A stretch of 46,613 nucleotides of DNA, from NCBI GenBank assembly GCA_945875335.1, contig CAMCKD010000005.1, positions 1 through 46,613 on the forward strand, read 5' to 3'. The DNA is from an uncultured Clostridia bacterium (GTDB lineage Bacteria > Bacillota > Clostridia > Oscillospirales > Oscillospiraceae). Both the position numbers and the translations under genes were made by a program. Position 1 is the stretch's first letter, and each line of letters starts with the position of its first letter. Shown here one piece after another: positions 29,654 to 46,524 of this stretch. Under the pieces are notes generated by a model. It did not search any database. It had not been told where the DNA came from and saw only the letters and a list, made by a program, of their open reading frames with translations.

Positions 29654-29701
29654 AACGTTTTTACGCAACACAAATACACAGGAGAGAGCCCCTGCGTTTT
29701 G

Positions 29702-29857
29702 ATACTATTATCTGACTGAAAGCTCACAAAGATTTCCGAGGATGATTTGCGCAAAACAAGGCGACGTGCAGCCGGGCTGACGCCCTGCAAAGACGACAAC
29801 GCGGTTTTGCACAAATCAGGCCGGAAAGATTGTGAGGTTTTAGCCAGATAATAGTAT
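29702..29857. repeat. MITE-like element with ATACTATTATCTG ends (type D)
   Basis: 156 bases bounded by ATACTATTATCTG (29702-29714) and its exact reverse complement CAGATAATAGTAT (29845-29857). Further internal inverted similarity is visible (CTCACAA/TTGTGAG, GATTTGCGCAAAAC/GTTTTGCACAAATC). Only one copy is in the window. It accounts for much of the 558-base gap between the RACo-type gene and cbiK; a 135-codon open frame across it is not a gene. Confidence 0.85.
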
Positions 29858-30075
29858 GAAATTCTTGTAGTTCTTCTGACTTGTATCTCAAACGAAATTC
29901 GTTCCTGCCTTCTCAGGTCTCCCCAATGACCGGCTTCCGCCGACGGAGCGAATTTCTCGATACTCACAGCACCGTTTTCGTGCGGGGCTTTTCACCCACA
30001 TTCCCTTTTTAATCCCCACAGCCGACCTGCGCACCATGGGGCCACAAGAACAATCTATTCACTTGGTTTCCTTTT

Positions 30076-30912
30076 TTACATAACCGCAATGGCTGCTTTT
30101 GCGTGCTTCACAAACAGGTTCTGAACGGCTTCCAGTTCCCCGAGGCCATGCACCTGGCATACCACCTCATAACCGGCGCTTTCAAAGATGTGCTTCCAGG
30201 AGCCCTCTTCCTCACCGGCCATGTCGTTGTTGGCGTGGTCCCCGGCGACGATCATCATTGGCTGCAAAAGCACACGTTTGTAATTCCCGGCCTTCACCAG
30301 GGACAAAACCTTATCCACAGTGGGGGCGGCCTCTACGGTGCCGATGAAATAATTGTTTCTGCCGCTGTCCGTCAGCTGCTGCATTCTTTCGTACACTTTG
30401 TTGGCGGCGGCTTCCGTGCCGTGGCCCATAAAGCAGATGGCGGTTTTTTCATCGTCATAGGCGGCGACGGATGCAGCCAGGGCATCGGCAACGATCTGGA
30501 AATCCTCATCAGAGGTCAACAGCGGGGTCCCAATGGAAAGGGAAAGGAAAGCATCCTGATACCGGGCGGCCTGCTTGACCAGTTTCTGATACTCAAAGCC
30601 ATCCATGATATGCGTTGGCTGAATGACCAGGTTTTTCACCCCATTGGATACGGCCCGGTCCAAAGCCTGGGTAACATTGTCGATGGAGATCCCGTCCCGA
30701 CGCTTCAGATGGTTGATGATCATTTGGCTGGTAAAGCTCCTGCGAAGATCGTACCCCGGAAAGGCCCTTTCCAGAGCATCCTCGATGGCTCCGATGGTCC
30801 GGCGGCAGCTGTCAAGATAGCTGGTGCCGAAGCTGACCGCCAGCAGCTCCTTTTCTCCGATACCATCCTGGTTTCTGGGGTTATCCGCCTGATGGATTGT
30901 CTGTGGGTTCAT
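30076..30912 (-). CDS. cbiK: Sirohydrochlorin cobaltochelatase CbiK
   Basis: 278 residues. Class II (ATP-independent) chelatase that inserts Co2+ into sirohydrochlorin or precorrin-2 in early-cobalt (anaerobic) cobalamin synthesis. Metal-site residues are visible: H164 in FMGHGTEAAANKVY and H226 in VAGDHANNDMAGEEEGSWK, matching the two histidines of known CbiK, with a further PTHIMDG (H101). The two-fold alpha/beta halves and length are right for CbiK and longer than CbiX short forms. No signal peptide is visible, unlike some periplasmic CbiKP proteins. RBS AAGGAGG precedes ATG 30912. Transcription starts at 31305-31333 and passes a cobalamin riboswitch and terminator, so the gene should be repressed by cobalamin. 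Confidence 0.95.
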   Translation of the reverse strand: MNPQTIHQADNPRNQDGIGEKELLAVSFGTSYLDSCRRTIGAIEDALERAFPGYDLRRSFTSQMIINHLKRRDGISIDNVTQALDRAVSNGVKNLVIQPTHIMDGFEYQKLVKQAARYQDAFLSLSIGTPLLTSDEDFQIVADALAASVAAYDDEKTAICFMGHGTEAAANKVYERMQQLTDSGRNNYFIGTVEAAPTVDKVLSLVKAGNYKRVLLQPMMIVAGDHANNDMAGEEEGSWKHIFESAGYEVVCQVHGLGELEAVQNLFVKHAKAAIAVM

Positions 30913-30979
30913 TGGTGTTTCCTCCTTCGTTTTGCAATGTAAAAATTACAACAACAAAATCAGGTACGGAAACACGCCG

Positions 30980-31010
30980 AAAAAAAGTGATCATCTGTAA
31001 AGATGACCAC
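30980..31010 (-). terminator. Riboswitch-controlled intrinsic terminator before cbiK
   Basis: On the minus strand, GTGGTCATCT, TTAC loop, AGATGATCAC then seven T residues. It lies between the cobalamin aptamer and the cbiK start codon, the expected position of an expression platform. Confidence 0.88.
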
Positions 31011-31105
31011 GCACAATGACCGCGGGACGCCATTCGGCCCCCCGTGAACACGGTACAATCAATTCCTCGTGATCTGGAACACCTCGACGATGCTCCCGTA
31101 CCAGC

Positions 31106-31293
31106 AATCGGCAGGTCTCCTGACTCGTAAGTCATCACGCACCTTCGTCTTCCCGGCTTTCGCCAGTGACTGTCCTTTTCTGACACAGAGGGTGCGCTCG
31201 TTACATACAGTGACGAGATCGTACAGGCCTTTCACCTGTTTCCCTATTATCCGTTCCATTCCCACAGGAACAAACGGCACCGATTCCTTATTC
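31106..31293 (-). promoter_or_regulatory. Cobalamin riboswitch upstream of cbiK
   Basis: Read on the minus strand, the conserved parts occur in order: GGTGCC near the 5' end, ATAATAGGGAA, ACAGGTGAAAGGCCTGT, GTCACTG, the GGCGAAAGCCGGGAAGACG core, GATGACTTACGAGTCAGGAG and the terminal ACCTGCC. This is the standard B12-element (Cobalamin family) consensus. The terminator at 30980-31010 follows. Confidence 0.95.
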
Positions 31294-31304
31294 AGTTTAT
31301 AAGG

Positions 31305-31333
31305 ATTATATCACACAATCCTTTTCAATGCAA
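31305..31333 (-). promoter_or_regulatory. Promoter for the cbiK leader
   Basis: On the minus strand TTGCAT (31328-31333), 17 bases, TATAAT (31305-31310). Its start site would be a few bases before the cobalamin aptamer. Confidence 0.85.
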
Positions 31334-31355
31334 TACCAATACTTTTCCGACCTAC

Positions 31356-31384
31356 TTGCATTCTTTGCAAGGCCATGCTATAAT
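31356..31384 (+). promoter_or_regulatory. Promoter for the transporter/chelatase operon
   Basis: TTGCAT (31356-31361), 17 bases, TATAAT (31379-31384) with TGC just before the -10. Same hexamers and spacing as the divergent promoter; the two -35 boxes are 22 bases apart. Confidence 0.88.
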
Positions 31385-31407
31385 AGCAAAAAACAATAAC
31401 TACTTTC

Positions 31408-31562
31408 TGAGTGCCCCTTTTTAGAAGGGGATAATAGGGAATCGGGTGGAAATCCCGAGCGATCCGGTCACTGTAAACGGAGAGTTGCGCCGTAGGATGC
31501 CATTGCCCCATGGGTGAGAAGGCACGGCCAGCGCTGACCCGCAAGCCAGGAAACCTGCTCAG
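31408..31562 (+). promoter_or_regulatory. Cobalamin riboswitch upstream of the transporter/chelatase operon
   Basis: Conserved parts in order: AGTGCC, GATAATAGGGAATC, GGGTGGAAATCCCG, CGGTCACTGTAA, a GTGAGAAGGCACGG core and GACCCGCAAGCCAGGAAACCTGC. This matches the Cobalamin riboswitch consensus and lies just behind the promoter at 31356-31384. Confidence 0.95.
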
Positions 31563-31666
31563 AAGGAATGGTGAGGTATCTTCCGCAGAAAGTAGCTCAT
31601 CTGAATCGGCAGCAGGGGAAAAGTCCGTCCGGATTTTTCCTGGTTTTGCGTTGCCTTTTTGGATGG

Positions 31667-31698
31667 CCGCTTTCCATGAATTTGGAAAGCGGTGTTTT
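31667..31698 (+). terminator. Riboswitch-controlled terminator in the operon leader
   Basis: Perfect 9-base stem CCGCTTTCC / GGAAAGCGG (31667-31675 with 31684-31692), then TGTTTTGCT. It lies between the aptamer and the first gene, as expected of an expression platform. Confidence 0.8.
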
Positions 31699-31744
31699 GC
31701 TGCTATGCGGTGATATAAATCAATCAAAAAAGGAGCAACCCAAA

Positions 31745-32725
31745 ATGAAGAAAGTAAAAAAACTGCTGTGTATGATGATGGCTGTGGCAATGGTATTCAC
31801 CCTGGCCATCCGGGTGAGCGCCGCCGGGAATCAGACGGAGTATCCGGTGACGGTTACCACCTATGACTACGAGGGCAACGAGATTGAAACGACCTATGAG
31901 AAGGCCCCCGAAAAAGTGATTTGTGTCTATCAGGGCTGCATTGAGACCATGATTGCCCTGGGTCTGGAAGACCGGGTGATTGCTTCCTACGGCCTGGATA
32001 ATCCGGTGAAGGAAGAATGGGAAGAGGGCCTGTCCAAAATGAATTACAACGAGGACGCCTTCTCTCCCGACAAGGAAACCGTCCTGATGATGGAGCCGGA
32101 TCTGATTTTTACCTGGGGCTCCCTGTTCAGCGATAAGAAGCTGGGCAACCAGACCGAATGGATTGCAAACGGCACCAATACCTACATCAGCACCAATACC
32201 CGCCGGGGCGGCTATCCCCGGACGCTGGAAAATGAATACACCGATCTTCTGAACATCGGCCGCATCTTTGGCGTGGAGGATAAAGCCCAGGCGCTGGTGG
32301 ACGAAATGAAGAATGAGATTGCCGGTGTCCTGGAGCAGACCGCCGGACAGGAAGCGCCCCGGGTGGCGGTGATTGAGTTTCTGGGTGACCAGATCAGTAA
32401 TTATAGCGCCAAGCAGCTTGGCGGAAGCATGGTGGAAGCCCTTGGCGGTACCCTTGCCAATCCCGATGCCTCTGAGATCGGCAAGGAGGATCTGGTGGAG
32501 CTGGACCCGGACGTGATCTTCGTGGTATATATGGCCCGCACGGAGAATGTGGAAGCGGAAATGATTGCAAAGGTCATGGAGGATCCCGCCTTTGCCGATT
32601 TGTCCGCTGTCAAGAATGGCCGTGTTTACAGCATCATGCTGGGCGATATGTATGCCTCCACGGTTCGCTCCATTGATGGCATCCGCACCTTCGCCGCCGG
32701 AATGTATCCTGAGCTGTACAAATAA
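31745..32725 (+). CDS. ABC transporter substrate-binding protein (BtuF/FecB-like), first set
   Basis: 326 residues. Signal peptide of Sec type (KKVKKLLCMMMAVAMVFTLAIRVSA, cut likely after VSA) with no lipobox Cys, followed by a periplasmic-binding-protein type III fold (PEKVICVYQGCIETMIALGLEDRVIAS, EPDLIFTWGSLF, LDPDVIFVVYMARTEN, VKNGRVYSI). It should catch a metal complex (corrinoid, haem or siderophore) for the permease and ATPase encoded next. Because a cobalamin riboswitch governs the transcript, a corrinoid or a cobalt complex is the best substrate guess. Lack of a lipid anchor is odd in a Gram-positive; it may be released or held by the permease. ATG 31745 has AAAGGAGC upstream. Confidence 0.9.
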   Translation: MKKVKKLLCMMMAVAMVFTLAIRVSAAGNQTEYPVTVTTYDYEGNEIETTYEKAPEKVICVYQGCIETMIALGLEDRVIASYGLDNPVKEEWEEGLSKMNYNEDAFSPDKETVLMMEPDLIFTWGSLFSDKKLGNQTEWIANGTNTYISTNTRRGGYPRTLENEYTDLLNIGRIFGVEDKAQALVDEMKNEIAGVLEQTAGQEAPRVAVIEFLGDQISNYSAKQLGGSMVEALGGTLANPDASEIGKEDLVELDPDVIFVVYMARTENVEAEMIAKVMEDPAFADLSAVKNGRVYSIMLGDMYASTVRSIDGIRTFAAGMYPELYK

Positions 32726-32728
32726 GCG

Positions 32729-33811
32729 GTGAAAGAGCAGAAAACAACAAGGGGCTTCCTCCGCGGAACCCCCGCTGCCGCACTGAGCATTTTGGTGCTG
32801 TTGGTGCTTTTGGTACTATCCCTTTTGGGCGCTGTAACCTTTGGTTCAACAGACATTCCCATTGGGGATGTGTACGGGGTGATCTCCCAAAAGCTGTATC
32901 ATCTCCTCATTGGAGACGGAAGCTGGGGAAGCGGCAGCCTGTTTCGTGCCATCTGGTACATTCGGCTGCCACGGCTGATTCTTGCCATGGCTATCGGTGC
33001 GGGGCTTGCAACCTGCGGTGTGGTCATGCAGGCAATTGTGAAGAATCCTCTGGCTGACCCTTATGTGCTTGGAATTTCCTCCGGTGCCTCTCTGGGGGCC
33101 ACAGCAGCGATCCTACTGGGTGTGGGAACGGTTTTCGGCAGCAATTTCGTGGGGGTGATGGCCTTTTTGGGGGCCTTTGTCATTTCCTTGGCGGTGGTTG
33201 GTCTGGCCAATATCGGCGGCCGCGCCAATTCCGTGAAGCTGCTGCTGGCGGGAACGGCGCTGAGCTCCGTGTGCAGTGCCTTTTCCAGCTTCATTGTTTA
33301 TATTGCCCATGACAGGGAAGGAATGCAGACGGTTACCTACTGGATGATGGGAGCCCTGGGCGGCGCGACCTGGGAAACGGATTTGGTTGTGCTGCTGGTG
33401 GTGCTTGCGGGAATTGGATTTTTCCTGACCCAATACCGGACGCTGAACCTGATGCTCTTCGGGGACGAGACTTCCATCACCCTTGGAACGGATTTGCACA
33501 AATGGCGGCAGCTGTACCTGCTTGTGAGTGCGGCAATTGTGGGGTTTGCGGTGTATGCGGCCGGCATGATTGGCTTTGTGGGACTGGTGATTCCCCATGT
33601 GGTGCGGATGTTTTTCGGCACGGATCACAAGCGGTTGCTGCCGATTTCGGCCCTGACTGGAGCGATTTTTCTGATTTGGGCGGATGTGGCCTGCCGGACC
33701 ATCATTCCCGGGCAGGAGCTGCCCATCGGAATTCTGACCTCCATGATTGGCGCACCCTGCTTTATTTATCTGATGGCGCGTAAGCGCTACGGCTTTGGAG
33801 GTGGGGACTGA
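32729..33811 (+). CDS. FecCD/BtuC-family ABC permease, first set
   Basis: 360 residues, about ten hydrophobic helices. Family signatures: RLPRLILAMAIGAGLATCGVVMQ (a recognised FecCD stretch), NPLADPYVLGISSGASLGA, and GFVGLVIPHVVRMFFGTDHKRLLP near residue 285-308, which contacts the ATPase. The likely start is GTG 32729, three bases after the substrate-binding gene, with no strong ribosome site, suggesting coupled translation. The stop overlaps the ATPase start by one base. Confidence 0.93.
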   Translation: MKEQKTTRGFLRGTPAAALSILVLLVLLVLSLLGAVTFGSTDIPIGDVYGVISQKLYHLLIGDGSWGSGSLFRAIWYIRLPRLILAMAIGAGLATCGVVMQAIVKNPLADPYVLGISSGASLGATAAILLGVGTVFGSNFVGVMAFLGAFVISLAVVGLANIGGRANSVKLLLAGTALSSVCSAFSSFIVYIAHDREGMQTVTYWMMGALGGATWETDLVVLLVVLAGIGFFLTQYRTLNLMLFGDETSITLGTDLHKWRQLYLLVSAAIVGFAVYAAGMIGFVGLVIPHVVRMFFGTDHKRLLPISALTGAIFLIWADVACRTIIPGQELPIGILTSMIGAPCFIYLMARKRYGFGGGD

Positions 33812-34596
33812 TGCGGGTGGAAGCGTGCGATGTGCAGTGCGTACTCAATGCCAATCGAATCCTCAAGGGCGTGAGCATGTATGCCTCCCAGCGGGAGATG
33901 GTAGGACTGATTGGCCCCAACGGAAGTGGGAAAAGCACCCTGCTGAAATGCATCTACCGAATCCTCCGCCCCACTGGCGGTGCGGTGAAGCTGGACGGGA
34001 GGGATTTGCTGGCGTGCACCACCAAGGAATCCGCCCGGGCTCTGGCAGTAGTGGCCCAGCATAATTACTATAATTTTGATTTCTCCGTTCAGGATGTGGT
34101 GCTCATGGGCCGCGCCCCCCATAAGCGGGCCCTGGACCGGGACAACGCGGAGGATTACCGGATTGTGGCTCAGGCGCTGGAAACGGTGGGAATGACTTCC
34201 TTTGCCCAGCGCTCCTTCTCCACCCTGTCCGGCGGCGAGCAGCAGCGGGTGATCCTGGCCCGGGCTCTGGCCCAGCAGACCCCCTGCCTGATTCTGGACG
34301 AGCCTACCAATCATCTGGATATCAAATACCAGCTCCAGCTGATGGATTTGGTGAAGGGCTTGGAGCGAACGGTGATTACAGCCGTCCATGATTTGAACAT
34401 TGCGGCGATGTACTGTGACCGGCTGTATGCTTTGAAGGATGGAAAAATTGTGGGGCAGGGGACGCCCAGAGAGCTGCTGACGCCCCAGCTGATTCGGAAG
34501 GTCTACGAGGTGGACGCCGAGGTCTACGAGGACAGCCACGGGATCCTGCGGGTGCTTTATTACCCCGACGGAGCGAGAAAGGAAACAGTCCAATGA
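33811..34596 (+). CDS. ABC transporter ATPase (BtuD/FecE-like), first set
   Basis: 261 residues. Walker A GPNGSGKS at 35-42, Q-loop AQHNYYNFDF (about 85), signature LSGGEQQR at 139-146, Walker B CLILDEPTNHLD with D163, and H-loop AVHDLN. It powers the importer made by the two preceding genes. It overlaps the next gene (CGGC type) by four bases, placing that protein in the same transcript. Confidence 0.94.
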   Translation: MRVEACDVQCVLNANRILKGVSMYASQREMVGLIGPNGSGKSTLLKCIYRILRPTGGAVKLDGRDLLACTTKESARALAVVAQHNYYNFDFSVQDVVLMGRAPHKRALDRDNAEDYRIVAQALETVGMTSFAQRSFSTLSGGEQQRVILARALAQQTPCLILDEPTNHLDIKYQLQLMDLVKGLERTVITAVHDLNIAAMYCDRLYALKDGKIVGQGTPRELLTPQLIRKVYEVDAEVYEDSHGILRVLYYPDGARKETVQ

Positions 34597-34931
34597 AGAA
34601 AATCGCCATTTTAGCCTGCTTGAAGGCCAATGATGTGTGCGCCGGGGTGGGCTGCCTGAATGCGCTGGAGCAGCGGCGGGCCTATTTCCGGGAATATGCC
34701 GGTGAGCAGGTGCAGCTGTGTGCGTTCCTGCGGTGCAGCCAATGCGGTGTGGACCCGGAAGCAGATGCTGGAATGATGGAAAAGCTGGAACGAATCGTCA
34801 GCTGCGGCGTGGAAACCGCCCACATTGGAATCTGCGCCTCCCACCGGGACGGCACCCACTGCCCCCACATGCAGAAAACAGCTGATTGGCTGGAAGAAAA
34901 GGGCATCCGCATTGTATGGGGAACCCATTGA
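34593..34931 (+). CDS. CGGC-domain-like cysteine-rich protein
   Basis: 112 residues with nine Cys (positions 9, 16, 21, 43, 48, 51, 71, 81, 90) and several His (HCPHM near 89-93). It begins KKIAILACLKANDVCAGVGCLNAL and contains LRCSQCG at the position of the CGGC family motif, and IGICASH near 78-83. Proteins of this family are small cytosolic predicted metal binders of unproven function. Coupling to the ATPase gene (four-base overlap) under a cobalamin riboswitch suggests a cobalt- or corrinoid-handling role, which is an inference. Confidence 0.78.
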   Translation: MKKIAILACLKANDVCAGVGCLNALEQRRAYFREYAGEQVQLCAFLRCSQCGVDPEADAGMMEKLERIVSCGVETAHIGICASHRDGTHCPHMQKTADWLEEKGIRIVWGTH

Positions 34932-34957
34932 ACAAATAAGGAAAAGGAGTAATCATT

Positions 34958-35464
34958 ATGAAAAAAGCAACTGCAATTGTTTTAGCGCTGACACTGCTGA
35001 TTTGCCTCACGGCCTGTGCAAAGGAAACCTCCGGGTCAGCTTCCGGGGGGCCGGCGCTGAAGGAAGAAAACGGTGTCCTGACCTGCCTGGATACGACATC
35101 CAGCCCGTTTGAAGACTGCGCCGTCCGTGTGACCGTGGACAAGACCGCCGGAACCGTGACATTTACAAAAGCCACAAAGGACGGTCAGGATACCAAGGAG
35201 TATTATCGGTTTACTCCCTCTGAGCACATGCTGGAGCAATTCTATTATGTCTCCATGATGGGAACTGGTTTCTACTATTATTATGACACCGATTTGGGCG
35301 AGATGGTGAGAATGGAGGACAAGGATCATAACGACAGCACCGCATCCGCCAAGGAGAATGGCCGCTTTGACGGCCCGGCAGCACAGATCAAGAAAGATGC
35401 TGCCACCTTGGAGGAATACTTCTCCAATACCTACGGAATGAGCATCGCGGAAGCGGTAAAGTAA
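34958..35464 (+). CDS. Lipoprotein of unknown function
   Basis: 168 residues. Lipoprotein signal peptide with lipobox LTAC (lipidated Cys at 20), so it should be anchored on the outer face of the membrane. The mature part shows no family I recognise; it is mostly beta-strand-like with an aromatic YYYYYDTD cluster (EQFYYVSMMGTGFYYYY) and an acidic, His-containing MEDKDHND turn. RBS AAGGAG precedes ATG 34958. Its place between two importer sets under a cobalamin riboswitch suggests it may take part in ligand capture. Confidence 0.75.
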   Translation: MKKATAIVLALTLLICLTACAKETSGSASGGPALKEENGVLTCLDTTSSPFEDCAVRVTVDKTAGTVTFTKATKDGQDTKEYYRFTPSEHMLEQFYYVSMMGTGFYYYYDTDLGEMVRMEDKDHNDSTASAKENGRFDGPAAQIKKDAATLEEYFSNTYGMSIAEAVK

Positions 35465-35478
35465 AAGGACAGACTGCT

Positions 35479-35513
35479 GCCGGCGGGAGCGGAAACGTTC
35501 CTGCCGGCTTTCG
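35479..35513 (+). terminator. Strong hairpin between the lipoprotein gene and the second importer
   Basis: A 13-base stem (GCCGGCGGGAGCG / CGTTCCTGCCGGC, two G-U pairs) with a GAAA loop, followed by TTTC. It may partly terminate, or set the expression ratio between the first and second halves of the operon. Confidence 0.55.
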
Positions 35514-35528
35514 ATTAGGAGGAAAAGA

Positions 35529-36569
35529 ATGAAACGAACCATGGTGGTTTCGCTGCTCGTGTGCATCCTGCTGGGCCTGTGTGCCTGCGGTGGAAGCGGA
35601 ATGGGCGGCATGAAAGCGGTTGATGTCACTTCCGGGGAAAAAAAGGAAGCCAATATTACGGTAAGTGAAGGCGGGTATCCCCTGACGGTTCAGGATTATT
35701 TTGAATATGAAACCGTTCTGGAAAGCCCGCCGGAACGTGTCGCCGTAATCTCCGGCACCCCACTGAACATCTGGTATGACCTGGGAGGAAAATCCATCTG
35801 CACCAGTGATATTTCCGATAACCTGAAGCTTGATCCCCAATATGCCCAGGAACTGTTGGCTCTCCCGGTTGTGGGGGCGGTATATTCTCTGGATATGGAG
35901 GCTGTTGTTGCGCAAAATGCGGATTTGGTGATTACCCAGGCCGGCGTGCAGAGCACGGCCAGCCAGACGCTGAGAAACATGGATATCCCGGTGATTGCCA
36001 CACTTCCGCGCACTTTTGACGACCTGGTTGCCACCTATCGTGCCTTTGGCCGCATTTTGCAGGTGGAGGGGCTGGCGGAAGAGAAAATCGAAGCAATGAC
36101 CCGGGAGAGGCAGAGCTATATTGACCAAGCTCCAAAGGAAGGAAAACGCATTGTTATTTTGTACCTGACCTCCAGTTCTCTGTCGGTTAAGCTGAATAGC
36201 TCCATTGCGGGAGACATTGCGACCAGCCTTGGCGCGGACAATATCGCCTCCTCTCTGCCGCCGGATACGATTGGCTCCGAGAATACGCCGCTGGACATTG
36301 AATACCTGGTGGAACAGGATCCGGATTTGGTGCTTGTGACCAGTATGATTGGGAGCAACGAACTCGCCATGGAGACCATGCAGAAGCAATTTGCGGATAA
36401 TATGGCATGGCAGAGTGTGAAAGCAGTCACGCAGGGAAAGGTCTATTATCTTCCCCAGGAGTATTTCCTGTACAATGCCGGTCCGTATTACAACGAAGCG
36501 GTGCGCTATATGGCCTGCACGCTCTATCCCGAAGTATTCGGGGAGGTGTCCGATTGGTATGGAAAATAA
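35529..36569 (+). CDS. ABC transporter substrate-binding lipoprotein (BtuF/FecB-like), second set
   Basis: 346 residues with lipobox LCAC (Cys 20). The fold is again binding-protein type III: PERVAVISGTPLNIWYDLGGKSICTSD, NADLVITQAGVQSTA, a long connecting helix (FGRILQVEGLAEEKIEAM), LVEQDPDLVLVTSMIG and VTQGKVYYLPQEYFLYNAG. Its sequence is clearly different from the first binding protein, so this is not a recent duplication. RBS TTAGGAGGAAAAG lies just upstream of the ATG, and the stop overlaps the next permease. Confidence 0.92.
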   Translation: MKRTMVVSLLVCILLGLCACGGSGMGGMKAVDVTSGEKKEANITVSEGGYPLTVQDYFEYETVLESPPERVAVISGTPLNIWYDLGGKSICTSDISDNLKLDPQYAQELLALPVVGAVYSLDMEAVVAQNADLVITQAGVQSTASQTLRNMDIPVIATLPRTFDDLVATYRAFGRILQVEGLAEEKIEAMTRERQSYIDQAPKEGKRIVILYLTSSSLSVKLNSSIAGDIATSLGADNIASSLPPDTIGSENTPLDIEYLVEQDPDLVLVTSMIGSNELAMETMQKQFADNMAWQSVKAVTQGKVYYLPQEYFLYNAGPYYNEAVRYMACTLYPEVFGEVSDWYGK

Positions 36570-37554
36570 TCGTAGTATCCGGGATTGCACTACCTACCGG
36601 CTGGGCGTGCTGCTGGTGCTGCTTGCTGGGTGTGTATTTGCGTTTCTGCTTGGCAATGTTGTTGGAACCCTTCAAATTCCCTTCCGTAGAGTTCTGGAAT
36701 TGCTGTTCCACGCCGACGGGTCACCGGAGTGGAAGGCGATATGGAACATCCGCCTGCCGCGGATGATTTTGGCAGGACTTGTGGGAATCAATCTGGCATT
36801 GTCCGGCTCCATATTACAGGGAGTTATGTCCAATCCGCTGGCGGATCCAAGCATCATTGGCATCAGCTCCGGTGCGGGACTGTTTGGTATCTTCATTCTT
36901 GTCGTTCTGCCACAGTACCAGACGCTTGTACCATTTTTCGCATTCCTGGGGGCCATGCTGGCGGCAATTATCATCTATTCCCTTGCATGGAAGGGAGGGA
37001 TTCATCCTACCCGGATCATCCTGGCGGGCGTGGCGGTATCCGCTCTTTTTAACGCCGGTATTTCCGGAACGCTGGTATTTTTCAGCGACCGCGTGCACGG
37101 CGCGCTGACCTTTATGAACGGAAGCCTTTCGGCCCGCAGCTGGGGTGAGGTGGAAATGATCCTTCCATATACCGTTGTGGGCCTCGTCCTGACCATGCTC
37201 TTCTCCCGGCAGATGAATATTCTGATTCTGGGAGACGATGTGGCCCGTGGCCTTGGACTGAACGTGGAACTGACACGAATGGGATTTACGGCACTGGCTG
37301 CCTTGCTGGCTGCAAGCGCCGTCAGCGCGGTGGGCCTTCTGGGCTTTGTCGGCCTCATCGTCCCCCATTCCATCCGATTGCTGATGGGAAACGATTACAA
37401 GGTCCTTTTCCCTGGCTCGGCACTTCTGGGGGCGGCCCTGGTGATGCTCAGTGATACCTTTGCCAGAACCATTTTCAGCCCGGTTGAGATACCCGTCGGC
37501 ATCGTGATGGCGGTTCTGGGTGTTCCGTTTTTCCTGTATCTGCTGCGGAGGTGA
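36559..37554 (+). CDS. FecCD/BtuC-family ABC permease, second set
   Basis: 331 residues with roughly ten membrane helices. NIRLPRMILAGLVGINLALSG, NPLADPSIIGISSGAGLFG and GFVGLIVPHSIRLLMGNDYK are the FecCD signatures. ATG 36559 was chosen because GGGAGGTG precedes it and MENNRSIRD gives a normal N-terminus; the frame upstream of it is inside the binding-protein gene. It overlaps the previous gene by 11 bases. Confidence 0.93.
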   Translation: MENNRSIRDCTTYRLGVLLVLLAGCVFAFLLGNVVGTLQIPFRRVLELLFHADGSPEWKAIWNIRLPRMILAGLVGINLALSGSILQGVMSNPLADPSIIGISSGAGLFGIFILVVLPQYQTLVPFFAFLGAMLAAIIIYSLAWKGGIHPTRIILAGVAVSALFNAGISGTLVFFSDRVHGALTFMNGSLSARSWGEVEMILPYTVVGLVLTMLFSRQMNILILGDDVARGLGLNVELTRMGFTALAALLAASAVSAVGLLGFVGLIVPHSIRLLMGNDYKVLFPGSALLGAALVMLSDTFARTIFSPVEIPVGIVMAVLGVPFFLYLLRR

Positions 37555-37558
37555 GAAC

Positions 37559-38350
37559 ATGTCGAATGTGATTATGCAAGTGAATCATCTGAGCGCAGGC
37601 TATCAGGGCCATAAGGTCATTGAGGATATTTCTTTCCAGGTGGAGCAAGGGAAGATCTACTCCATCATCGGGCCCAATGGATGCGGCAAGACAACACTGA
37701 TGCGGGCTGTCAGCCGGAATATTCGGCCCAGTGCCGGTCAGGTGCTGCTTGACGGAGAGAACATTTTCAAAATGAATACACGGAAGGTGGCGCGAAAGGT
37801 TGCAGTCCTCTCCCAAAGCAACAACACGATGAGCGATGTTTCCGTTCGCACACTTGTACAGTACGGCCGGTTTGCCCATATGGCCTGGTGGCAGGGCAGA
37901 AGCGCACAGGATGAACGGATCGTAGACTGGGCTTTGGAGAAAACCGGAATGGCTGATTTCGCCAACCGAAAGATCAACGCGCTTTCCGGCGGTGAGCGGC
38001 AAAGGGCGTGGATTGCCATGAGCATCGCCCAAAAGCCGGAAATACTGCTGCTGGACGAACCGACTACCTATCTGGATATTTCCCACCAGCTGGAAATCAT
38101 GGAGCTGGTGGCACGGCTCAACCGGGAGGAGAACATCACCATTCTGATGGTGCTGCACGACATTAACCATGCAGTTCGTTATTCCGATGAATTGATTGTG
38201 CTGCAGGATCACAGAATCTACCGGCAGGGAGACCCCTGGAGCATTTTAAGCAGCGACGTGCTGGAAAAGGTGTTCCGCGTTCAGGCACAGATTACTACCG
38301 ATTCAGAAAACGGCACACCCATTTTTTACGCGAAGGCGGTGATTCGGTAA
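37559..38350 (+). CDS. ABC transporter ATPase (BtuD/FecE-like), second set
   Basis: 263 residues. Walker A GPNGCGKT at 38-45, LSGGERQRAW signature, Walker B LLLDEPTTYLD, and H-loop VLHDINHAV. GGAGGTGAGAAC lies before ATG 37559, and the stop is directly followed by the cobN ATG with no gap. With the two preceding genes it forms a second complete importer of the iron-complex/B12 class. Confidence 0.94.
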   Translation: MSNVIMQVNHLSAGYQGHKVIEDISFQVEQGKIYSIIGPNGCGKTTLMRAVSRNIRPSAGQVLLDGENIFKMNTRKVARKVAVLSQSNNTMSDVSVRTLVQYGRFAHMAWWQGRSAQDERIVDWALEKTGMADFANRKINALSGGERQRAWIAMSIAQKPEILLLDEPTTYLDISHQLEIMELVARLNREENITILMVLHDINHAVRYSDELIVLQDHRIYRQGDPWSILSSDVLEKVFRVQAQITTDSENGTPIFYAKAVIR

Positions 38351-41300
38351 ATGAAATTCACTTTTATAACAGTTTGTGCACCGGCTGTTCAGCACCTGGC
38401 AGGGCTGCATGAATTGTATCAACGGAAAAATCCCGGTCTGGCAGAAATCAAGCTGTATTACGCAGTGGAGGAGTATGCACCGGAGAAGATGGAGCAAATG
38501 GCGGCGGACATTGCTTCGGCGGACTGTGTGCTGGTGGATTTGATGGGTTCTCCCCCCGGCATCATCCAGGCGGTGGAACGCGCGCTCGCCGACTGCAAGG
38601 GACAGATTCTTCCCTATGGCGCATCAGCCCGGTCCTATCTGCGGCTTGGAAAGTTTACTGCCGAGAGTATGAAGAGCAAGCATCCCGGCTCCGCTCCTGC
38701 TATGGAGACCATGAAAAAGATGCAGGACATGGCCCAGGCCTTGGGAAAGGTCATGCCCGGCAAAATGCGGGACATGCGTAATTATTCGCTGCTGATGCAG
38801 TATTTCCAGTATTCCAGCCAGGAAAATCTGGAATCCTTTCTGCGGCTGATGCTCAGGGAATATGGTGGGGTCAAATCCATCAGGGAACCGCTGCCGCCAC
38901 GGATTCCCAAACCGGTGGCGCTTTATGATATGACCACGCTGACACCGGAGGAGGAACCGGCGCACTATGCTGCACAGCAGGGATTCCGCAGCACTCTCCC
39001 CACAGTGGCACTGCTGTTTTCCTCCTATGCTTACCCCACGGATACGTCTGCGTGTATCCGTGCCATCCGAAATGTGCTGACTCCATTTTGCAATGTGCTG
39101 GCTTTGGGCTGTTCAGGAAGTCTATCGGAATATGAGCCTCAGCTGCGGAGATACCTGAAAGATCCGGCCTGGAAGCCGGTTTCTCTGGTGCTCAACTGCA
39201 TGCCCTTCCGCTTGGGAGCCGGGCCGATGGGCGGAAAAACGGATTTGGGAACGGTGCTTTTGGAATGGGTTGATGCACCGTACCTGCACCCATTTTTCCT
39301 GACCCGCAGAACCCAGCAGGATTGGGAGGAATCGGTATCCGGCTGTACGCCCTCCGAGACGCTGATTTCGGTGATGCTCCCTGAGATGGACGGCGCAATC
39401 GATCTGCTGCCGGTTGGCGCGATGGTTCAAAATCAGTATGATGCCGAACATGATGTGCAGCCATATGATCTGATCCCCATTGAGGAACGCTTGGAACGCC
39501 TGGCACTGCGTGTGCGCCGTTATCTTGCTCTGAGGCAAAAGCCGAATGGCGAAAAGAAAGTAGCGATTCTCTGCTACAACTATCCTCCGGGAGAGGCAAA
39601 CCTGTTTGGAGGGGCGTTTCTGGATACTTTTGTATCCGTCAGCCGGATTTTGGAACGTCTGGTGCAGGAGGGCTATACCACCAGCGCACTGACTCCCGGG
39701 CAGCTTAAAGAGGTTTTCACAGCCGGACATGCGGTAAATTCCGGAAAGTATGACTGCAACTGGAATGGCATGATTCGTTATTCCGTCCGGCACTATCGTG
39801 CGCCGTCGGAGGTAACGGAGCACTGGGGGAAGGCACCGGGAGAGATCATGGCGGAAGGAACGGATTTCCTGATCCCGGGAGTAGAGGTTGGCAATGTGTT
39901 TATCGGACTTCAGCCTGCCCGCGGCCGGGAGGCTGAACAGGAGCATTCCTACCATGACAAGACTCTGCCGCCTCACCATCAGTATGTGGCGTTTTACCAA
40001 TGGATTCGGGAGGAATTCCATGCGGATGCTCTGATTCATGTGGGTACCCATGGAACGCTGGAGTTTCTCAAGGGAAAAGAGAGCGGTATGTCCGCAGAAT
40101 GCTACCCGGACCGGCTGGTATATGACCTGCCCCATTTTTACCTGTATTATTGCGGTAATCCTTCCGAAGCGGTTGTCGCCAAGCGCCGTACCTGCGCCCA
40201 GCTCATCAGCTACCAGCCGCCTGTATTTGAAGAAAGCGATTTGTACGGCGCGTATCTGGAATTATCCACTGAAATTGATAACTTCCATCACGCCCAGGCA
40301 CTTTCGCCCGCAATGGCAGAGCAGATCCGCCAGCGAATCACTGCTCTGGCAGAGGAACTGAAGCTCCCGGATGATTTGGAGCTGCTGGAAAAGGAGCTTT
40401 ACCGTATGCAGCACAGCCTGATTCCCAGGGGGCTGCACGTATTTGGACAGGCATACAGCGAGGAAGAGGCCAAACGCTATGCGCTGGGTATGCTGCAAAC
40501 CCAGCGGGATGGTTTCCGCCCCCTAACGCAAATTCTGAACGAGGTCAACTTGGAGCCGGGACATACACCGCAGATGCTGATGGATGCATTCTGGGAAACC
40601 GAGACACTTCCCAAGTGGCTGAATGCGCCGGCACCGGTCAGGGAGGAGCTGACCCGGGCGCTGGGTTGGGCCTGCGCCGCAGTACAGCCATCGATGCAGA
40701 GCCGGGAATTGGATGCGCTGGTACATGCCCTCAGTGGCGGCTATACCCCGGCGCGGCTGGCAGGGGATATCTACCGCAGCCCCGAGGTGCTGCCCTCTGG
40801 CTGCAATCTCTACCAATTTGATTCCAGATTGGTTCCATCGGCTGTGGCGATGGCACGGGGGCAGCGCATCTGTGAAAACACATTGGAAGCCTACCGAAAA
40901 GAGGAAGGCCGTTGGCCGGAGTCTACGGCGGTGATCCTGTGGGGACTGGAAACCTCCCGCACCCAGGGAGAAACGCTGGGCCAGATTCTGGCATATTTGG
41001 GTGTCCGGCGAGTGGCATCCGGCAGTGTGTGGAATCTGAAGCTGGAGATTATCCCCCTTCAGGAGCTGGGCCGTCCCCGGATTGATGTTACGGTCAACAT
41101 CTGCGGCTTTTTCCGGGATATGTTCCCCTCACTGATCGAAGCCCTGGACGACGTGCTCTGGGAGCTGTATGACCGGGAAGAATCGGATGAAATGAATTAT
41201 TTCCGCGCCCACGCAAAAGCGCGCTATGCCCGCCTGATTGATGCCGGATATGCGCCGGAGGAGGCCAAGCAGCTGGCAATAGCCCGCATTTTCGGACCCA

Positions 41301-42001
41301 GGGAAGGGGAATACGGCACGCAGCTTACCGGCATCATCGAGACGAAAAACTGGCAGGATGAGGCTGAACTCGGCGCGTCGTTTACCGAAAGCCTGTGCCA
41401 TGTCTATACCCGCCGGAAGCGTGGACAGCGGGTGGATGGGCTGTACGAGGACAATCTGAAATGTGTGGAGATCGTTTCACAGCTGCGCAGTAATCACGAG
41501 TATGAAATAACTGATCTGGATCATTACTATGAGTTTTTCGGCGGCCTGGCCAAATCCGTGGAACAGGCCAAGGGCGGCATCCGGGCCAAGCAGTACATTA
41601 CGGATACCACCGGGGATAGCCCCTGCACGGAAACGGCGGATAAGGCCATTGCCCGGGGCATTCGGACCCGGGTATTGAATCCCAAATGGATTGACGCAAT
41701 GCTGGCCCACGATTACCATGGCGACGAGCAGATTGCCGCACGGTTTGAGAATGTCATGGGACTGGCAGCAACCACCGGTGATGTGGACAGCTGGATTTAT
41801 GAGGAGCTGAATGCCAAATATGTGGAGGACCGGCAGATGCGCCGCCGGATGGCTGAGAACAATCCCCACGCATACATGAATATTCTGGAGCAGCTGATGG
41901 AGTATCACAGCCGTGGGTACTGGAATGCCACCGACCAGCAGCTGGAGCAAATCCGGCAGGTCTATTTGGAGCTGGAAAACAACATGGAGGAAACCATATG
42001 A
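38351..42001 (+). CDS. cobN: CobN-type metal chelatase large subunit
   Basis: 1216 residues. Member of the CobN/BchH/ChlH family, the tetrapyrrole-binding subunit of class I ATP-dependent chelatases. The typical stretches are present: an N-terminal RossmanN-like part, [54 protein letters not shown] near 565-581, [32 protein letters not shown], and the C-terminal [13 protein letters not shown]. In cobalamin synthesis CobN works with CobS/CobT; here the partners next door are ChlI and ChlD types, the pattern seen in many anaerobes. The ATG directly follows the preceding stop. Cobalt is assumed because of the riboswitch; the tetrapyrrole substrate is unproven. Confidence 0.94.
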
Positions 42002-43023
42002 GCGAACAGATACTGTATCCCTTCTGCGCCATTGTGGGACAGGAGCGGATGAAGCGGGCGCTGATTCTGAACATCATCAATCCGGCGTTGGGAGGCGTGT
42101 TGATTCGGGGGGAAAAGGGAACCGCAAAATCCACGGCGGTACGCGCTTTGGCAGAGGTATTGGGACAGCGCCGAGAGGTGAAAGGCTGCCGGTTCGGCTG
42201 TGATCCGGACAATCCCTCCTTCTGGTGTGAGGAATGCCGTCAGCGGGCGGAAAAGGAAGCAATCATCGGACATATGCGGGTTGTCAATCTGCCGGTCAGC
42301 GCCACCGAGGACCGGGTCGTGGGGACACTGGACATGGAGCACGCCCTGAAATATGGGGAAAAGAAATTCGAGCCGGGCATTCTGGCAGCGGCAAACCGGA
42401 ACATTCTCTACGTGGATGAAGTGAACCTTTTGGATGACCACATTGTGGATGTACTGCTGGATGCCGCAGCTATGGGAGTCAATTCCATCGAACGGGAGGG
42501 AATTTCTTATGCACATCCGGCGCGTTTCGTGCTTGTTGGAACCATGAATCCCGAAGAGGGAGACCTTCGCCCTCAGCTGATCGACCGGTTCGGTCTGGTT
42601 GTGGATGTGGCGGGAGAGCAGGAGGTTTCCCAGCGGGCGGAGGTGGTGAAGCGACGGCTGCTGTTTGAGGCAGACCCGGAAGGGTTTGCGGCTTCCTACC
42701 GGGAGGAACAGTCCCGGCTCCAGGAAACCATCCTGAAGGCCCAGAAGTGCCTGAAAGAAGTAACCTTTTCCGATGCCTGCCTGGGCTTAATTGCAGATCT
42801 TGCCATTGCGCTTGAGGTGGATGGACACCGGGCAGACATTACCATGCTCAAAACCGCCATCACCAACGCCGCCTATGAAGGGCGCACCCGCGTGACAAAA
42901 GGGGATCTCCTGCTGGCAGCTCAGTTGGCGCTTCCCCACCGGCTCCGGCGCAGACCTTTTGAGGAAGGCAATATGGATTTGGACCGTGTTGCGGAGAGAA
43001 TTGAAGCGTATGGGCAGATTTGA
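41998..43023 (+). CDS. ChlI/BchI-type AAA+ chelatase subunit with Cys4 insertion
   Basis: 341 residues. Walker A GEKGTAKS at 38-45, Walker [21 protein letters not shown], sensor [22 protein letters not shown]. Between the Walker A helix and beta-2 there is a C64-x3-C68-x8-C77-x2-C80 cluster that probably binds zinc or iron-sulfur; it is not found in classical plant ChlI. It should form the ATPase ring with the D subunit encoded next and drive CobN. It overlaps cobN by four bases (ATGA) and the next gene by 14. Confidence 0.93.
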
Positions 43024-44851
43024 CCATTGCTTTCCCTTCGCGGCTGTTGCGGGGCAGGATTCCGTCAAGCAGGCGCTGCTGCTGTGTGCGGTGAATCCGG
43101 CGATAGGCGGTGTGTTGCTGGCAGGGGAAAAAGGAACCGCAAAATCCACGCTTGTGCGCGGCCTGGCAGCTCTGTTGGAGGACGCTCCGTTTGTTGAACT
43201 GCCCTTAAACGTGACAGAGGATCGATTGGTGGGCTCCGTGGATTTGGAGGCTGCCCTGCAGCGGGGCCAGCTGCAGAGCGAAGGAGGACTTCTTCAGCGC
43301 TCAGACGGTGGCTTCCTGTATGTGGATGAGGTAAATCTGCTGTCCGAGCATATCGTGAATATTCTTCTGGAGGTCTCATCCACAGGGGAGAATATTGTGG
43401 AACGGGAGGGGATTTCCTTCCGGCACCAGTCCCGATTTTTACTGGTTGGTTCCATGAATCCGGAGGAGGGGCGCCTGCGGCCCCATTTTGCGGATCGGTT
43501 TGGCCTCTATGTGCCAACCCACGGAGAACGTGATTCGGCGGTGCGCTGCGAAATCATTCGCCGTCGATTGGAATATGAGAAGGATCCCGTGGCATTTGAA
43601 TCTAAATGGGAAAGCCAGACCTTGGCACTTCAACGGAAACTGAACCAAGCCCGGCTGCTGCTGCCCCGGGTTATGCTGCCGGAACGCCAGCGCCGATTTG
43701 CGGCCCAGTTGGCAAGCCAGGGGGGATGTGCAGGACATCGGGGAGAGCTGGCGATGTGCGAAGCTGCCCGTGCCAGAGCAGCGTTGGCGGGAAGGTTGAC
43801 AGTGACAGGAGAGGACATCCAGGCGGTTGCGCCATTTGCACTTGCCCATCGTTTGCGTGAAGCGGTATCTGCCCCTGAGACACCGGAAAAGCTGGCTCAG
43901 GAAAATGATTCCCAGGAATGGGAAAAGCCAAAAGCACCGGAAGCCCCGGAATTCCAACAAGAGGATTCCCCAATACAACACGCTCAGGATTCAAATCAGA
44001 CAGCGGAGGCGGTGGACCGATGGGAAGACATCCAGCCTATCCAGCAGGAAATCAGACTGTCCGAGCCTGTAACCAGGCAAAAGCGCCCGGCAGGAACCGG
44101 AAAGCGGTTGAAGGTTCGCAGTCACTCCAGCCGAGGCCGCTATGTCCGTGCAGCCTTGCCCAATCAATCTGAGGATGATTTGGCGCTGGATGCGACCCTC
44201 CGTGCTGCTGCATCACATCCAAAAGGGAATAGCCCGCTGATGGTTGACATTCGCAGTGACGATCTTCGAGTAAAGGTTCGGGAACAGCGCACAGGCACCA
44301 CAATTCTGTTTCTGGTGGATGCCAGCGGCTCCATGGGTGCCATGCGCCGGATGGGGGTGGTAAAGGGTGCGGTTCTGTCCCTGCTCAGTGATGCTTATGA
44401 AAAGCGGGATACTGTCGGTATCATCGCTTTTCGTAAGGAGCGGGCCGATACACTTCTGCCTCTGACCCGCAGTGTGGACCTGGCGCAAAAGCAGCTGCGC
44501 CAGCTGCACACCGGCGGCAAAACACCCCTGGCACATGGGTTGCTGGCAGCCGCTCAGCTTTTGAAAATTGATAGGCTGAAGAACCCTGGCTCACGGCAGT
44601 ATCTGGTGGTCGTTTCCGATGGAAGAACGAATGTTCCGTTATGGAGTGATTCTCCAACTGAGGATGCGTGGAAAGCAGCGAAGCACCTCAGTGTGGAACC
44701 AATACAGTCACTTGTGCTCGACCCGGAGGAGGGCTTTATGCAGTTTGGTATGGCCAAAAAGCTTGCAGAATCATTGAACGGGGAGTATGTTCACCTGAAG
44801 GTAAATTCCAGCCGGGTGCTGGGCAGCACGGTCAGAGAGTTCCTGAAATAA
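43010..44851 (+). CDS. ChlD/BchD-type chelatase subunit (AAA+ and VWA domains)
   Basis: 613 residues from ATG 43010. The N-terminal AAA+ domain (about 1-285) has an intact Walker A GEKGTAKS (39-46), [16 protein letters not shown] and [21 protein letters not shown] Pro/Glu/Gln-rich linker follows (about 285-380). The C-terminal VWA domain has MIDAS D437-x-S439-x-S441 in FLVDASGSM, then [11 protein letters not shown] and [11 protein letters not shown]. This order (AAA, acidic linker, VWA) is that of ChlD, which bridges the ATPase ring to the large subunit. Upstream in-frame ATGs exist, but [16 protein letters not shown] matches the natural beginning. It is the last gene of the operon. Confidence 0.93.
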
Positions 44852-44867
44852 TCTATCTTCTATACAG

Positions 44868-44907
44868 AAAACACGCCGCACCTCATCAAGAGTGTGCGGC
44901 GTGTTTC
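44868..44907. terminator. Bidirectional terminator after the chelatase operon
   Basis: Perfect 13-base inverted repeat AAACACGCCGCAC / GTGCGGCGTGTTT with a 12-base loop, 16 bases past the chlD-type stop. In the leftward direction a TTTTCTGT tail follows, so it may serve both convergent transcripts. Confidence 0.75.
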
Positions 44908-44968
44908 CGGCTAGGGAAATCATACCAGAATGATTGGGCAGCATTCCGAAATGACAAAAGGAAAAGGC

Positions 44969-45041
44969 TACCGATGCTTCCGGCAGCTGCTCCAACACAG
45001 ATACAAGAAGAAAAATCTGTCATCTGTCAGAAGCATCGGTA
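44969..45041. other. Long nested inverted repeat, possible structured RNA
   Basis: TACCGATGCTTC (44969-44980) and GAAGCATCGGTA (45030-45041) are exact reverse complements. Within them ACAGAT and ATCTGT form an inner pair, and GGCAG/CTGTC may extend the outer stem. It lies in the 357-base gap between the chelatase operon and gldA. On the minus strand a pyrimidine-rich CCTTTTCCTTTTG tail follows, so a gldA terminator is an alternative reading. Confidence 0.5.
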
Positions 45042-45057
45042 AAGGGGGGTATTTCCT

Positions 45058-45159
45058 ATGTGGCTTTATTATACAATGTCACTCGAGAAAAGGGAAATAG
45101 AAAACATTTATGGCACGCTTTCCTGTTTAGCATGGGTAGGAGAGAATAATTTGAAATAG
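45058..45159 (+). CDS. Possible small open reading frame, 33 codons
   Basis: MWLYYTMSLEKREIENIYGT and on to VGENNLK. It begins with ATG after AAAGGGGGG at a workable distance and directly after the nested inverted repeat. I recognise no family. There is no promoter I can point to, and the terminator at 44868 would separate it from the operon, so it could be spurious. Confidence 0.25.
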   Translation: MWLYYTMSLEKREIENIYGTLSCLAWVGENNLK

Positions 45160-45208
45160 TTTTGCAATCTGAATACGGCATGGAGCATAGCATGGGTTTT
45201 CCCTGGGT

Positions 45209-46309: not shown

Positions 46310-46342
46310 GCACAATCCTTTCTGACATGGTTTATGCTTATG

Positions 46343-46498: not shown

Positions 46499-46524
46499 AT
46501 CAATTGAAGTTTATTGACGCTCCC

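Follow-up and report, generated by a model that had tools for sequence, protein, structure and literature searches.

Known class I chelatases that work with I and D partner subunits insert their metal using ATP. HmuS is a member of the CobN superfamily that removes iron from haem, according to the available part of its report (PMC12583661). As described there, the reaction needs NADH and not ATP, no PPIX was seen with ATP alone, and the protein is predicted to be membrane-anchored. Because de-chelation by HmuS works without ATP, it offers no model for removal powered by ATP. The available sections of a second source (PMC10100974) place a cobalamin riboswitch on some hmu-like operons. In B. fragilis, btuS1 is BF638R_2504 and a cbiK gene is BF638R-2502, as given in the accessible portion of PMC6460266. 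The pairing of a class I with a class II chelatase, treated as peculiar in a first-pass annotation of the present DNA, is thus found elsewhere; cbiK also lies 1.6 kb from cobN in genome G038, 4.3 kb away at locus L031 and ~9.8 kb away at L025.

The window analysed here is the whole stretch of 46,613 nucleotides from an uncultured Clostridia bacterium. Profile searches bear out the gene order first described for its hub: cbiK on the minus strand and, on the plus strand, genes for importer 1, a CGGC protein, a lipoprotein, importer 2, cobN, chlI and chlD. The features are as follows.

27592..29517, minus: AcsV/RACo-type corrinoid activation protein (NF040756, 922.8 bits, cut-off 800)
29697-29676 and 29654-29628, minus: terminator-like hairpins after riboswitch 3
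29849..30059, minus: cobalamin riboswitch 3, weaker (RF00174, 40.7 bits), 5' of the acsV-type gene
30076..30912, minus: CbiK, class II chelatase (PF06180, 266 bits, cut-off 26.2)
31010-30987, minus: terminator-like hairpin after riboswitch 2
31093..31299, minus: cobalamin riboswitch 2 (RF00174, 112.3 bits), 5' of cbiK
31392..31576, plus: cobalamin riboswitch 1 (RF00174, 121 bits), 5' of importer 1
31616-31641 and 31666-31693, plus: terminator-like hairpins after riboswitch 1, before SBP1
31745..32725, plus: importer 1 substrate-binding protein, SBP1 (PF01497)
32729..33811, plus: importer 1 permease, FecCD (PF01032, 297 bits)
33811..34596, plus: importer 1 ATPase (PF00005)
34593..34931, plus: CGGC-domain protein (PF08821)
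34934..44863, no strand: block (cassette) missing in relative G061 (blastn of window against L119; junctions read)
34958..35464, plus: LipoX, small probable lipoprotein (Cys20, hydrophobic N-terminus)
35529..36569, plus: importer 2 substrate-binding protein, SBP2, probable lipoprotein (PF01497)
36475..37554, plus: importer 2 permease, FecCD (PF01032, 309 bits), true start probably inside this ORF
37520..38350, plus: importer 2 ATPase (PF00005)
38351..42001, plus: CobN/ChlH-like H subunit, class I chelatase (PF02514, CobN-Mg_chel, 1009 bits)
41998..43023, plus: ChlI-type AAA+ subunit (TIGR02442, 507 bits, N half; TIGR02030, 412 bits; both below cut-off)
43010..44851, plus: ChlD-type AAA+/VWA subunit, start probably ATG 43010 (TIGR02442, 661 bits; TIGR02031, 440 bits; both below cut-off)

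The two opposed cobalamin riboswitches reported earlier are both present, but their number is not two: Rfam gives three, all above the curated covariance-model cut-off of 31.5 bits. Riboswitch 3 and its acsV-type gene lie outside the part of the window in which the hub was first described. Six terminator-like hairpin sites were found against 3.1 (sd 1.9) in shuffles, and each riboswitch is followed by at least one. Through the same-strand gene run, riboswitch 1 is also 5' of the CobN cassette and would control the whole plus-strand run. Riboswitch 2 is 100% identical to the G061 copy over 205 aligned bases. A fourth cobalamin riboswitch is found 5' of a lysR gene on contig C48 of the same genome, which, by comparison with G061, follows the right end of the present contig. 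A consensus scan of 29450-31800 found no sigma-70-type promoter.

CbiK possesses the GHGT motif and has no signal peptide by hydropathy. Its score to the equivalog SiroCoChCbiK (NF047852) is 245 bits, under the cut-off of 400, which leaves its specificity for cobalt uncertain. For SBP1, ATG 31745 is a more probable start than one within the riboswitch. The closest solved chain to SBP1 is 4ljs, and BtuF is absent among the 24 solved matches checked for SBP1 as a cobalamin binder.

The cassette is a block of ~9.9 kb, a proposed addition to a B12-controlled hub. In the near relative G061, where the CGGC-domain protein is 95% identical, both flanks stand ~22 bases apart. G061 carries a diverged importer 1 and no CobN cassette, and the earlier view of the two importers as one system is not supported. 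LipoX accompanies the cassette in part of its family (orthologues in L023, L024, L025 and L116 at 40-42%). It has zero Pfam matches up to E 1, and its NCBIfam matches are weak and to the leader. LipoX was considered as a NEAT domain and rejected (hhalign probability 19.7%, no Pfam match). The family profile of SBP2 is nearest to 8bf6, Lmo2184 and IsdE, and the binding protein of relative L160 matches Lmo2184 (4.4e-21) and IsdE (3.5e-20). The column of the IsdE His is Met in 7/7 riboswitch-controlled SBP2 proteins and His in 3/3 others. By motif search, ChlI and ChlD both contain the Walker A sequence GEKGTAKS, and ChlD has DASGS at the VWA metal site.

The window CobN is not the enzyme of the aerobic pathway, as judged by tree, score and motif. 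It groups with nine relatives in a single clade (n=10, support 100/100), and this clade and aerobic-pathway CobN lie on opposite sides of a 99/98 branch. The clade is distributed among Bacillota and one Chloroflexota genome. CobN scores 562 bits to TIGR02257 (cut-off 822) and narrowly misses TIGR02025, the BchH Mg chelatase H equivalog (807.7 against 829). It scores 515 bits to ChlH and 309 to HmuS, and its best solved match is ChlH. The motif reads GTHGTLEF here, GAHGTLEF in L159 and L160, and GKHGNLEW in aerobic CobN. Glutamates in two motifs where solved ChlH variants differ are kept in 9/9 aligned clade members, so the sequence allows insertion equally well. The protein has neither a signal peptide nor a transmembrane segment by hydropathy (highest 19-residue value 1.31, residue 54).

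The CobN survey covered 55 loci, of which 29 were used for protein extraction and 28 yielded a CobN longer than 700 aa. The tree omits eight rows, most of them partial (L117, L080, L101, L106, L107, L102, L103 and L059), and its program flags unlike composition in 25 rows, with four of the 12 named rows in the cassette clade. L046, considered as an HmuS reference and rejected, scores 418 to CobN, 406 to HmuS and 384 to ChlH, leaving the tree without a sure HmuS row. The ChlH row, L029, carries no annotation and is so labelled from its cyanobacterial origin. A plasmid search with the Evansella CobN returned 159 records, all below 60% identity.

The linkage of importer 2 to CobN-ChlI-ChlD, proposed from this window, recurs in relatives. 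A FecCD-type permease lies on the same strand within 6 kb of CobN in 8/8 other clade loci checked, with ChlI/ChlD adjoining. The same check found one in 2/26 non-clade loci (L028 and L031, both archaeal) and, with these two excluded, in 0/15 non-clade loci with long flanks; L096, L117, L014, L099, L100, L101, L102, L103, L106 and L107 were outside it. The importer 2 permease is 72-74% identical in L023, L024, L025, L116 and L131, and 45-65% identical in L117, L118, L026, L159 and L160. These comparisons support treating importer 2 and CobN-ChlI-ChlD as one unit.

The cassette's control elements vary between lineages. A cobalamin riboswitch is present in 7/10 clade loci with upstream DNA (the window, L023, L024, L025, L116, L118 and L131), and the remaining three, of the Evansella family, carry Fur- or Zur-type boxes. 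Scored against Fur and Zur consensus letters, with shuffles that preserved single-base content only, L026 has two Zur-type boxes with one mismatch each (0/300 shuffles), L160 has one perfect and one 1-mismatch Fur box (0/300), and L159 has a Fur box with two mismatches (4/300). Since the Fur/Zur and riboswitch loci are on different branches, few control changes are counted. The elements suggest which metal may matter in each lineage, and iron or zinc control at some relatives points to scavenging rather than ordinary vitamin B12 manufacture. NEAT proteins adjoin the L116 and L160 cassettes, with a sortase at L116. L159 has a ferrochelatase gene 2.3 kb from its cassette and a ChlD divided between two ORFs, and L026 has a 154-aa ferrochelatase-like ORF after CobN. 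A C55 protein (L009:2105-2884) matches NEAT at 90% probability, but the alignment takes in the leader peptide.

Corrin-ring genes are absent from the window, as first noted, and, within the limits of a draft 92% complete, from the genome. CbiD, HemC, the hem-run methylase and a Cbi-type methylase were not found in this draft; of its only two TP_methylase matches, one is assigned to Met8-SUMT and the other, from its size, to RsmI. The cell is therefore unlikely to insert cobalt late into a corrin of its own making, in support of the earlier argument against de novo synthesis. DNA of the G061 genes cbiA, cbiB, cobD and cbiP was unmatched in the genome, with 40/189 first-look candidates scored, and the only cbi DNA was 54 bases of a methylase. 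A gene that flanks the G061 cbi cluster was found at 78% inside contig C22, beside other genes. A clean-loss scar was rejected, with one flanking gene only and other neighbours. True absence of the cluster is likely by our estimate, though not proven. The first-pass annotation had called for a record of corrin genes in relatives, and there the absence holds for this genome and probably Evansella. Of eight other cassette-bearing genomes counted (G511 and G514 were outside the count), seven have at least five tetrapyrrole-methylase matches, consistent with a corrin pathway, and Evansella has four. Since most bearers have the methylase set, the lack is a trait of the present genome, and probably of Evansella, and not of the cassette.

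Our best reading, held tentatively and somewhat short of an even chance, is that a metallated tetrapyrrole is imported and undergoes ATP-driven metal removal, possibly with exchange by CbiK. Scarce cobalamin would let riboswitch 1 permit reading of the plus strand. SBP2, perhaps aided by LipoX, would hand the metallated ring to the FecCD permease with its ATPase. The CobN/ChlH-like subunit would then grip the ring in the cytosol while the ChlI/ChlD AAA+ motor powers removal of the metal, making the freed metal (cobalt) or the emptied ring available. CbiK, turned on by riboswitch 2, could then insert cobalt, resulting in metal exchange. Action on an imported tetrapyrrole, already suggested from the window, is the best fit; the earlier observation is confirmed and its interpretation partly supported. 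Against this reading, a cell that makes no corrin has no obvious need of cobalt by itself, and cbi genes merely missing from the draft would change the case. A wider form, which we regard as doubtful, joins one importer to an ATP-driven class I chelatase working in the removal direction, rewired to a fitting sensor: Fur for iron, Zur for zinc and the cobalamin riboswitch for cobalt. From scavenged metallotetrapyrroles, the riboswitch form would gain cobalt or supply CbiK with an empty ring, and the His-to-Met change in the binding protein would mark the change of cargo.

The reverse direction is rather unlikely: a tetrapyrrole or corrinoid that lacks a metal, or carries the wrong one, would be imported and CobN-ChlI-ChlD would insert cobalt, finishing a scavenged ring. 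The ATP-driven insertion by known three-part enzymes, the kept glutamates, the cobalamin riboswitch and, as far as the available HmuS text (PMC12583661) goes, removal without ATP all fit it. The separation from corrin-binding aerobic CobN in clade and motif does not, and the Fur-/Zur-type boxes at sister cassettes suit a system that gains metal better than one that spends it. With the G061 genes unmatched among the 40/189 candidates scored, it is also doubtful that an early corrinoid could be completed. If the cassette instead took iron from haem like HmuS, the riboswitch would be a convenient or indirect switch. The NEAT and sortase neighbours, Fur boxes and IsdE-like binding protein of relatives favour such uptake; the riboswitch at 7/10 clade loci with upstream DNA and the Met column stand against it, as does 31300-31760 of the window, which has no Fur-type box at up to four mismatches, and we consider it improbable.

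Ordinary cobalamin synthesis, its pathway missing only through draft incompleteness, is less probable again. CbiD occurs in 24/28 CbiK-bearing genomes of the genus sample and in 10 relatives with a match like a secreted CbiK (gene order checked in L127 and L135), a CbiJ gene lies immediately 5' of the L116 cassette, and the draft's completeness and the methylase sets of other bearers agree with it. However, the cbi pathway takes cobalt early, through CbiK, leaving no step for late insertion, and the 54 methylase bases, the displaced flanking gene and the missing HemC and hem-run methylase also count against it. We give very little weight to metallation of an undescribed cofactor other than cobalamin. 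It draws on a different CobN operon in G038, in which a radical-SAM gene separates ChlD from CobN, but that CobN falls outside the cassette clade and profile searches found no modifying enzyme in the window's cassette.

Every clade locus checked pairs CobN with an importer, and the control elements hint at the metal, so the role of these "CobN" proteins can be put to the test. In gut genomes, cobN or cbiK alone is poor evidence of B12 synthesis, a caution also voiced in the available part of PMC6461909.

Among known systems, HmuS/BtuS of the Bacteroides and Porphyromonas hmu operon is alike in that a CobN superfamily protein is encoded with importer genes. Unlike the window CobN, it is predicted to have membrane anchors, at both ends, and the window CobN is accompanied by ChlI and ChlD. 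The aerobic cobaltochelatase CobNST is also a three-part class I chelatase, but differs in branch and motif, and no corrin pathway was found in the 92% complete draft. Isd-type haem uptake (NEAT, IsdE, permease, sortase) resembles the L116 and L160 surroundings and shares a binding protein related to IsdE and Lmo2184, whereas the window cassette has no NEAT gene and does have a class I chelatase, and seven loci have a cobalamin riboswitch. Magnesium chelatase ChlHID provides the best solved H-subunit match and has I and D subunits of the same type, but the cassette H subunit is below the BchH cut-off and is tied to an importer and a riboswitch.

Cobalamin riboswitches above the cut-off of cmscan occur at three places in the window:

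31392-31576 (+), riboswitch 1, facing importer 1
31299-31093 (-), riboswitch 2, facing cbiK
30059-29849 (-), riboswitch 3, facing an acsV-type gene

The first-pass annotation had claimed two riboswitches; both were borne out, and the third had been missed. Its protein names for the window genes were confirmed by protein family searches. The gene behind riboswitch 3 encodes an AcsV/RACo-type corrinoid activator that scores above the curated cut-off. Terminator-like hairpins are present between each riboswitch and its first gene. The hairpin count by itself is weak evidence, because 29450-31800 holds 6 terminator-like sites (5 of the 6 aptly placed) versus 3.1 (sd 1.9) in shuffles. A consensus scan of the same stretch found no sigma-70-type promoter. 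In the near relative G061, a DUF1638 gene lies between cbiK and acsV (L119:9717-10392), where the window has riboswitch 3 (29610-30080). Further left, 24740-27459 holds a DUF2201 VWA-type gene and, after it, a gene for an AAA ATPase; the two look similar to MoxR-VWA systems.

The cassette, which in the window comprises LipoX, importer 2 (the binding protein SBP2, a FecCD permease, and an ATPase), cobN, chlI, and chlD, is found at 10 loci apart from the window. These are L023 and L024 (Clostridiales MAGs), L025 (Anaerolineales), L026 (Evansella vedderi), L116, L117, L118, L131 with L096, L159, and L160; contig ends cut L117 and L131/L096. Across these loci, CobN is 43-56% identical to the window protein; for the permease, identity reaches 72-74% in L023, L024, L025, L116, and L131. 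Of the 391 genomes in the class sample, 10 have a CobN match, 5 of these at 43% or more with our own genome counted; 3 of 35 Evansella-family genomes carry the cassette, and 4 of 101 genomes of the genus sample have PF02514. The 10 cassette CobN proteins form a single clade (100/100) in a midpoint-rooted tree of 37 rows, 25 of which have an unlike letter make-up. The clade shares its side of the tree with archaeal homologues and one cyanobacterial row taken as ChlH, and the aerobic-type CobN rows lie across a 99/98 branch. The CobN proteins of two genomes of the genus sample, G038 and G039, are placed outside the clade; in G023, the portion examined has the gene order of G038. A same-strand FecCD permease is found within 6 kb at 8/8 clade loci checked and at 2/26 non-clade CobN loci (L028 and L031, both archaeal). 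At non-clade loci with long flanks the count is 0/15, and L028 and L031 fall outside it. The G038 operon (L079:787-11030) is of another kind, with ChlI, ChlD, a radical SAM protein, the non-clade CobN, an ABC-2 transporter, and CbiK, and it adjoins a cbi cluster.

The cassette behaves as a separate block. G061 carries the same locus and matches the window at 93-97% over 44864-46585 and, piecewise, over 24250-31297. The stretch holding importer 1 with its riboswitch matches in pieces only, at 68-75%, and 34934-44863 has no match at all in the G061 locus, where both edges of the missing block are ~22 bases apart. The left edge immediately follows the CGGC stop codon, and the right edge immediately precedes a hairpin-like stretch, common to G061, ahead of gldA. 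No mobile-element gene is present among the annotated ORFs of the block. With two genomes compared, the difference is either an insertion in the window or a loss in G061. The hub around the divergent riboswitches seems to have been exchanged recently, since it has a mean identity to G061 of 93.0% and our contig C48 one of 97.1%, higher than at three other common loci (77.9, 82.6, and 83.3%). The G061 match starts ~500 bases past a tRNA-Leu gene (23656-23742), and GC over 24250-46585 is mostly 0.52-0.57 versus 0.55-0.64 leftward. Together with the unusually high G061 identity, this suggests that 24250-46585 is perhaps an exchanged island. On C48 (L010:1655-360), a cobalamin riboswitch precedes a LysR-type regulator gene; the riboswitch is identical to the G061 copy over 187 bases.

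Control of the cassette differs among loci. A cobalamin riboswitch precedes the importer in 7/10 clade loci with upstream DNA (the window, L023, L024, L025, L116, L118, and L131); L117 was excluded because its sequence starts within cobN. The window has importer 1, the gene for the CGGC protein, and LipoX in between, and L116 has a NEAT gene there. No cobalamin riboswitch was found upstream in the Evansella-family loci L026, L159, and L160 (3/10). L026 has two 1-mismatch Zur-type boxes directly ahead of SBP2 and further ones downstream, one of them where a COG0523 ORF begins. L160 has a perfect and a 1-mismatch Fur box, and L159 a 2-mismatch Fur box. Single-base shuffles of the same stretches reached these scores in 0/300 (L026), 0/300 (L160), and 4/300 (L159) cases. 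Haem-type neighbours include two NEAT genes opposite the cassette in L160, two NEAT genes and a sortase within the cassette gene run of L116, and a ferrochelatase gene 2.3 kb off in L159, with another ORF between. The L160 binding protein is closest to Lmo2184 and IsdE and aligns a His with that of the IsdE motif LPHGM, the residue that binds haem in IsdE. This column is His in 3/3 Fur/Zur-type loci and Met in 7/7 riboswitch loci.

In our genome, two TP_methylase matches were found, one read as a Met8-SUMT fusion adjoining a FecCD importer and one RsmI-sized; CbiD and HemC have no match in the draft. With the G061 cbi cluster as DNA query (40/189 first-look candidates scored), our genome returned one flanking gene at 78%, a riboswitch, 54 bases of methylase, and short pieces of another flank. 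A draft gap is suggested by CbiK, of which our genome has two genes, one with a signal peptide. CbiK usually accompanies de novo synthesis in the genus sample (of 101 genomes, 29 have CbiD, 28 have CbiK, and 24 have the two together; Fisher p 1.8e-14, not corrected for relatedness). The missing HemC and the differing neighbours of the flanking gene speak for true absence, which we consider the somewhat likelier state of this genome.

Several related arrangements were seen. HemC has no match in 13/29 CbiD-bearing genomes of the genus sample, G061 included, and the gene read as Met8-SUMT follows the FecCD importer in both our genome and G061 (L008:3335-7371, L136:6761-10779). These observations suggest that an early tetrapyrrole is salvaged. 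On our contig C55 (L009:142-6178), a cobalamin riboswitch is followed by genes for a secreted CbiK, a protein that may be NEAT-like, and another FecCD importer, the third, an order kept in two relatives (L127, L135). At L121:8559-10097, a fusion of CbiK and a tetrapyrrole methylase (CbiL position) lies inside a hem gene run, with joined frames in several relatives.

In the window, the H subunit (CobN/ChlH-like) has no membrane segment by hydropathy, and the ChlI and ChlD motor motifs are intact. With the importer linkage and the metal- or cobalamin-sensing elements, this fits import followed by metal handling inside the cell: the ring would be imported and its metal handled in the cytosol by the H subunit with the I and D motor. 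The Fur- and Zur-type boxes of the sister loci point to metal gain, and hence metal removal would be the simplest common function of the cassettes. What the cell gains from the form under riboswitch control may be cobalt, or the emptied ring for CbiK. Sequence is compatible with either direction of the metal reaction, because the glutamates in the motifs of inserting enzymes are conserved here too.

Among the open-literature matches listed, no paper covered the cassette CobN clade, control of one cassette by Fur, Zur, and riboswitch, or a NEAT-linked class I chelatase. Related systems appear in several papers. Genomes without most corrin genes have CobN and CbiK/CbiX annotations (PMC6461909), and Bacteroides has hmu-like operons bearing a cobalamin riboswitch (PMC10100974). 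A role in metalloporphyrin salvage was proposed for BtuS (Rodionov 2003, via PMC6460266), and in Methanosarcina barkeri two BtuS proteins vary with iron source (PMC10846266). HmuS, the CobN-superfamily protein of hmu operons, is a precedent for metal removal within the superfamily, but it acts without ATP (PMC12583661).
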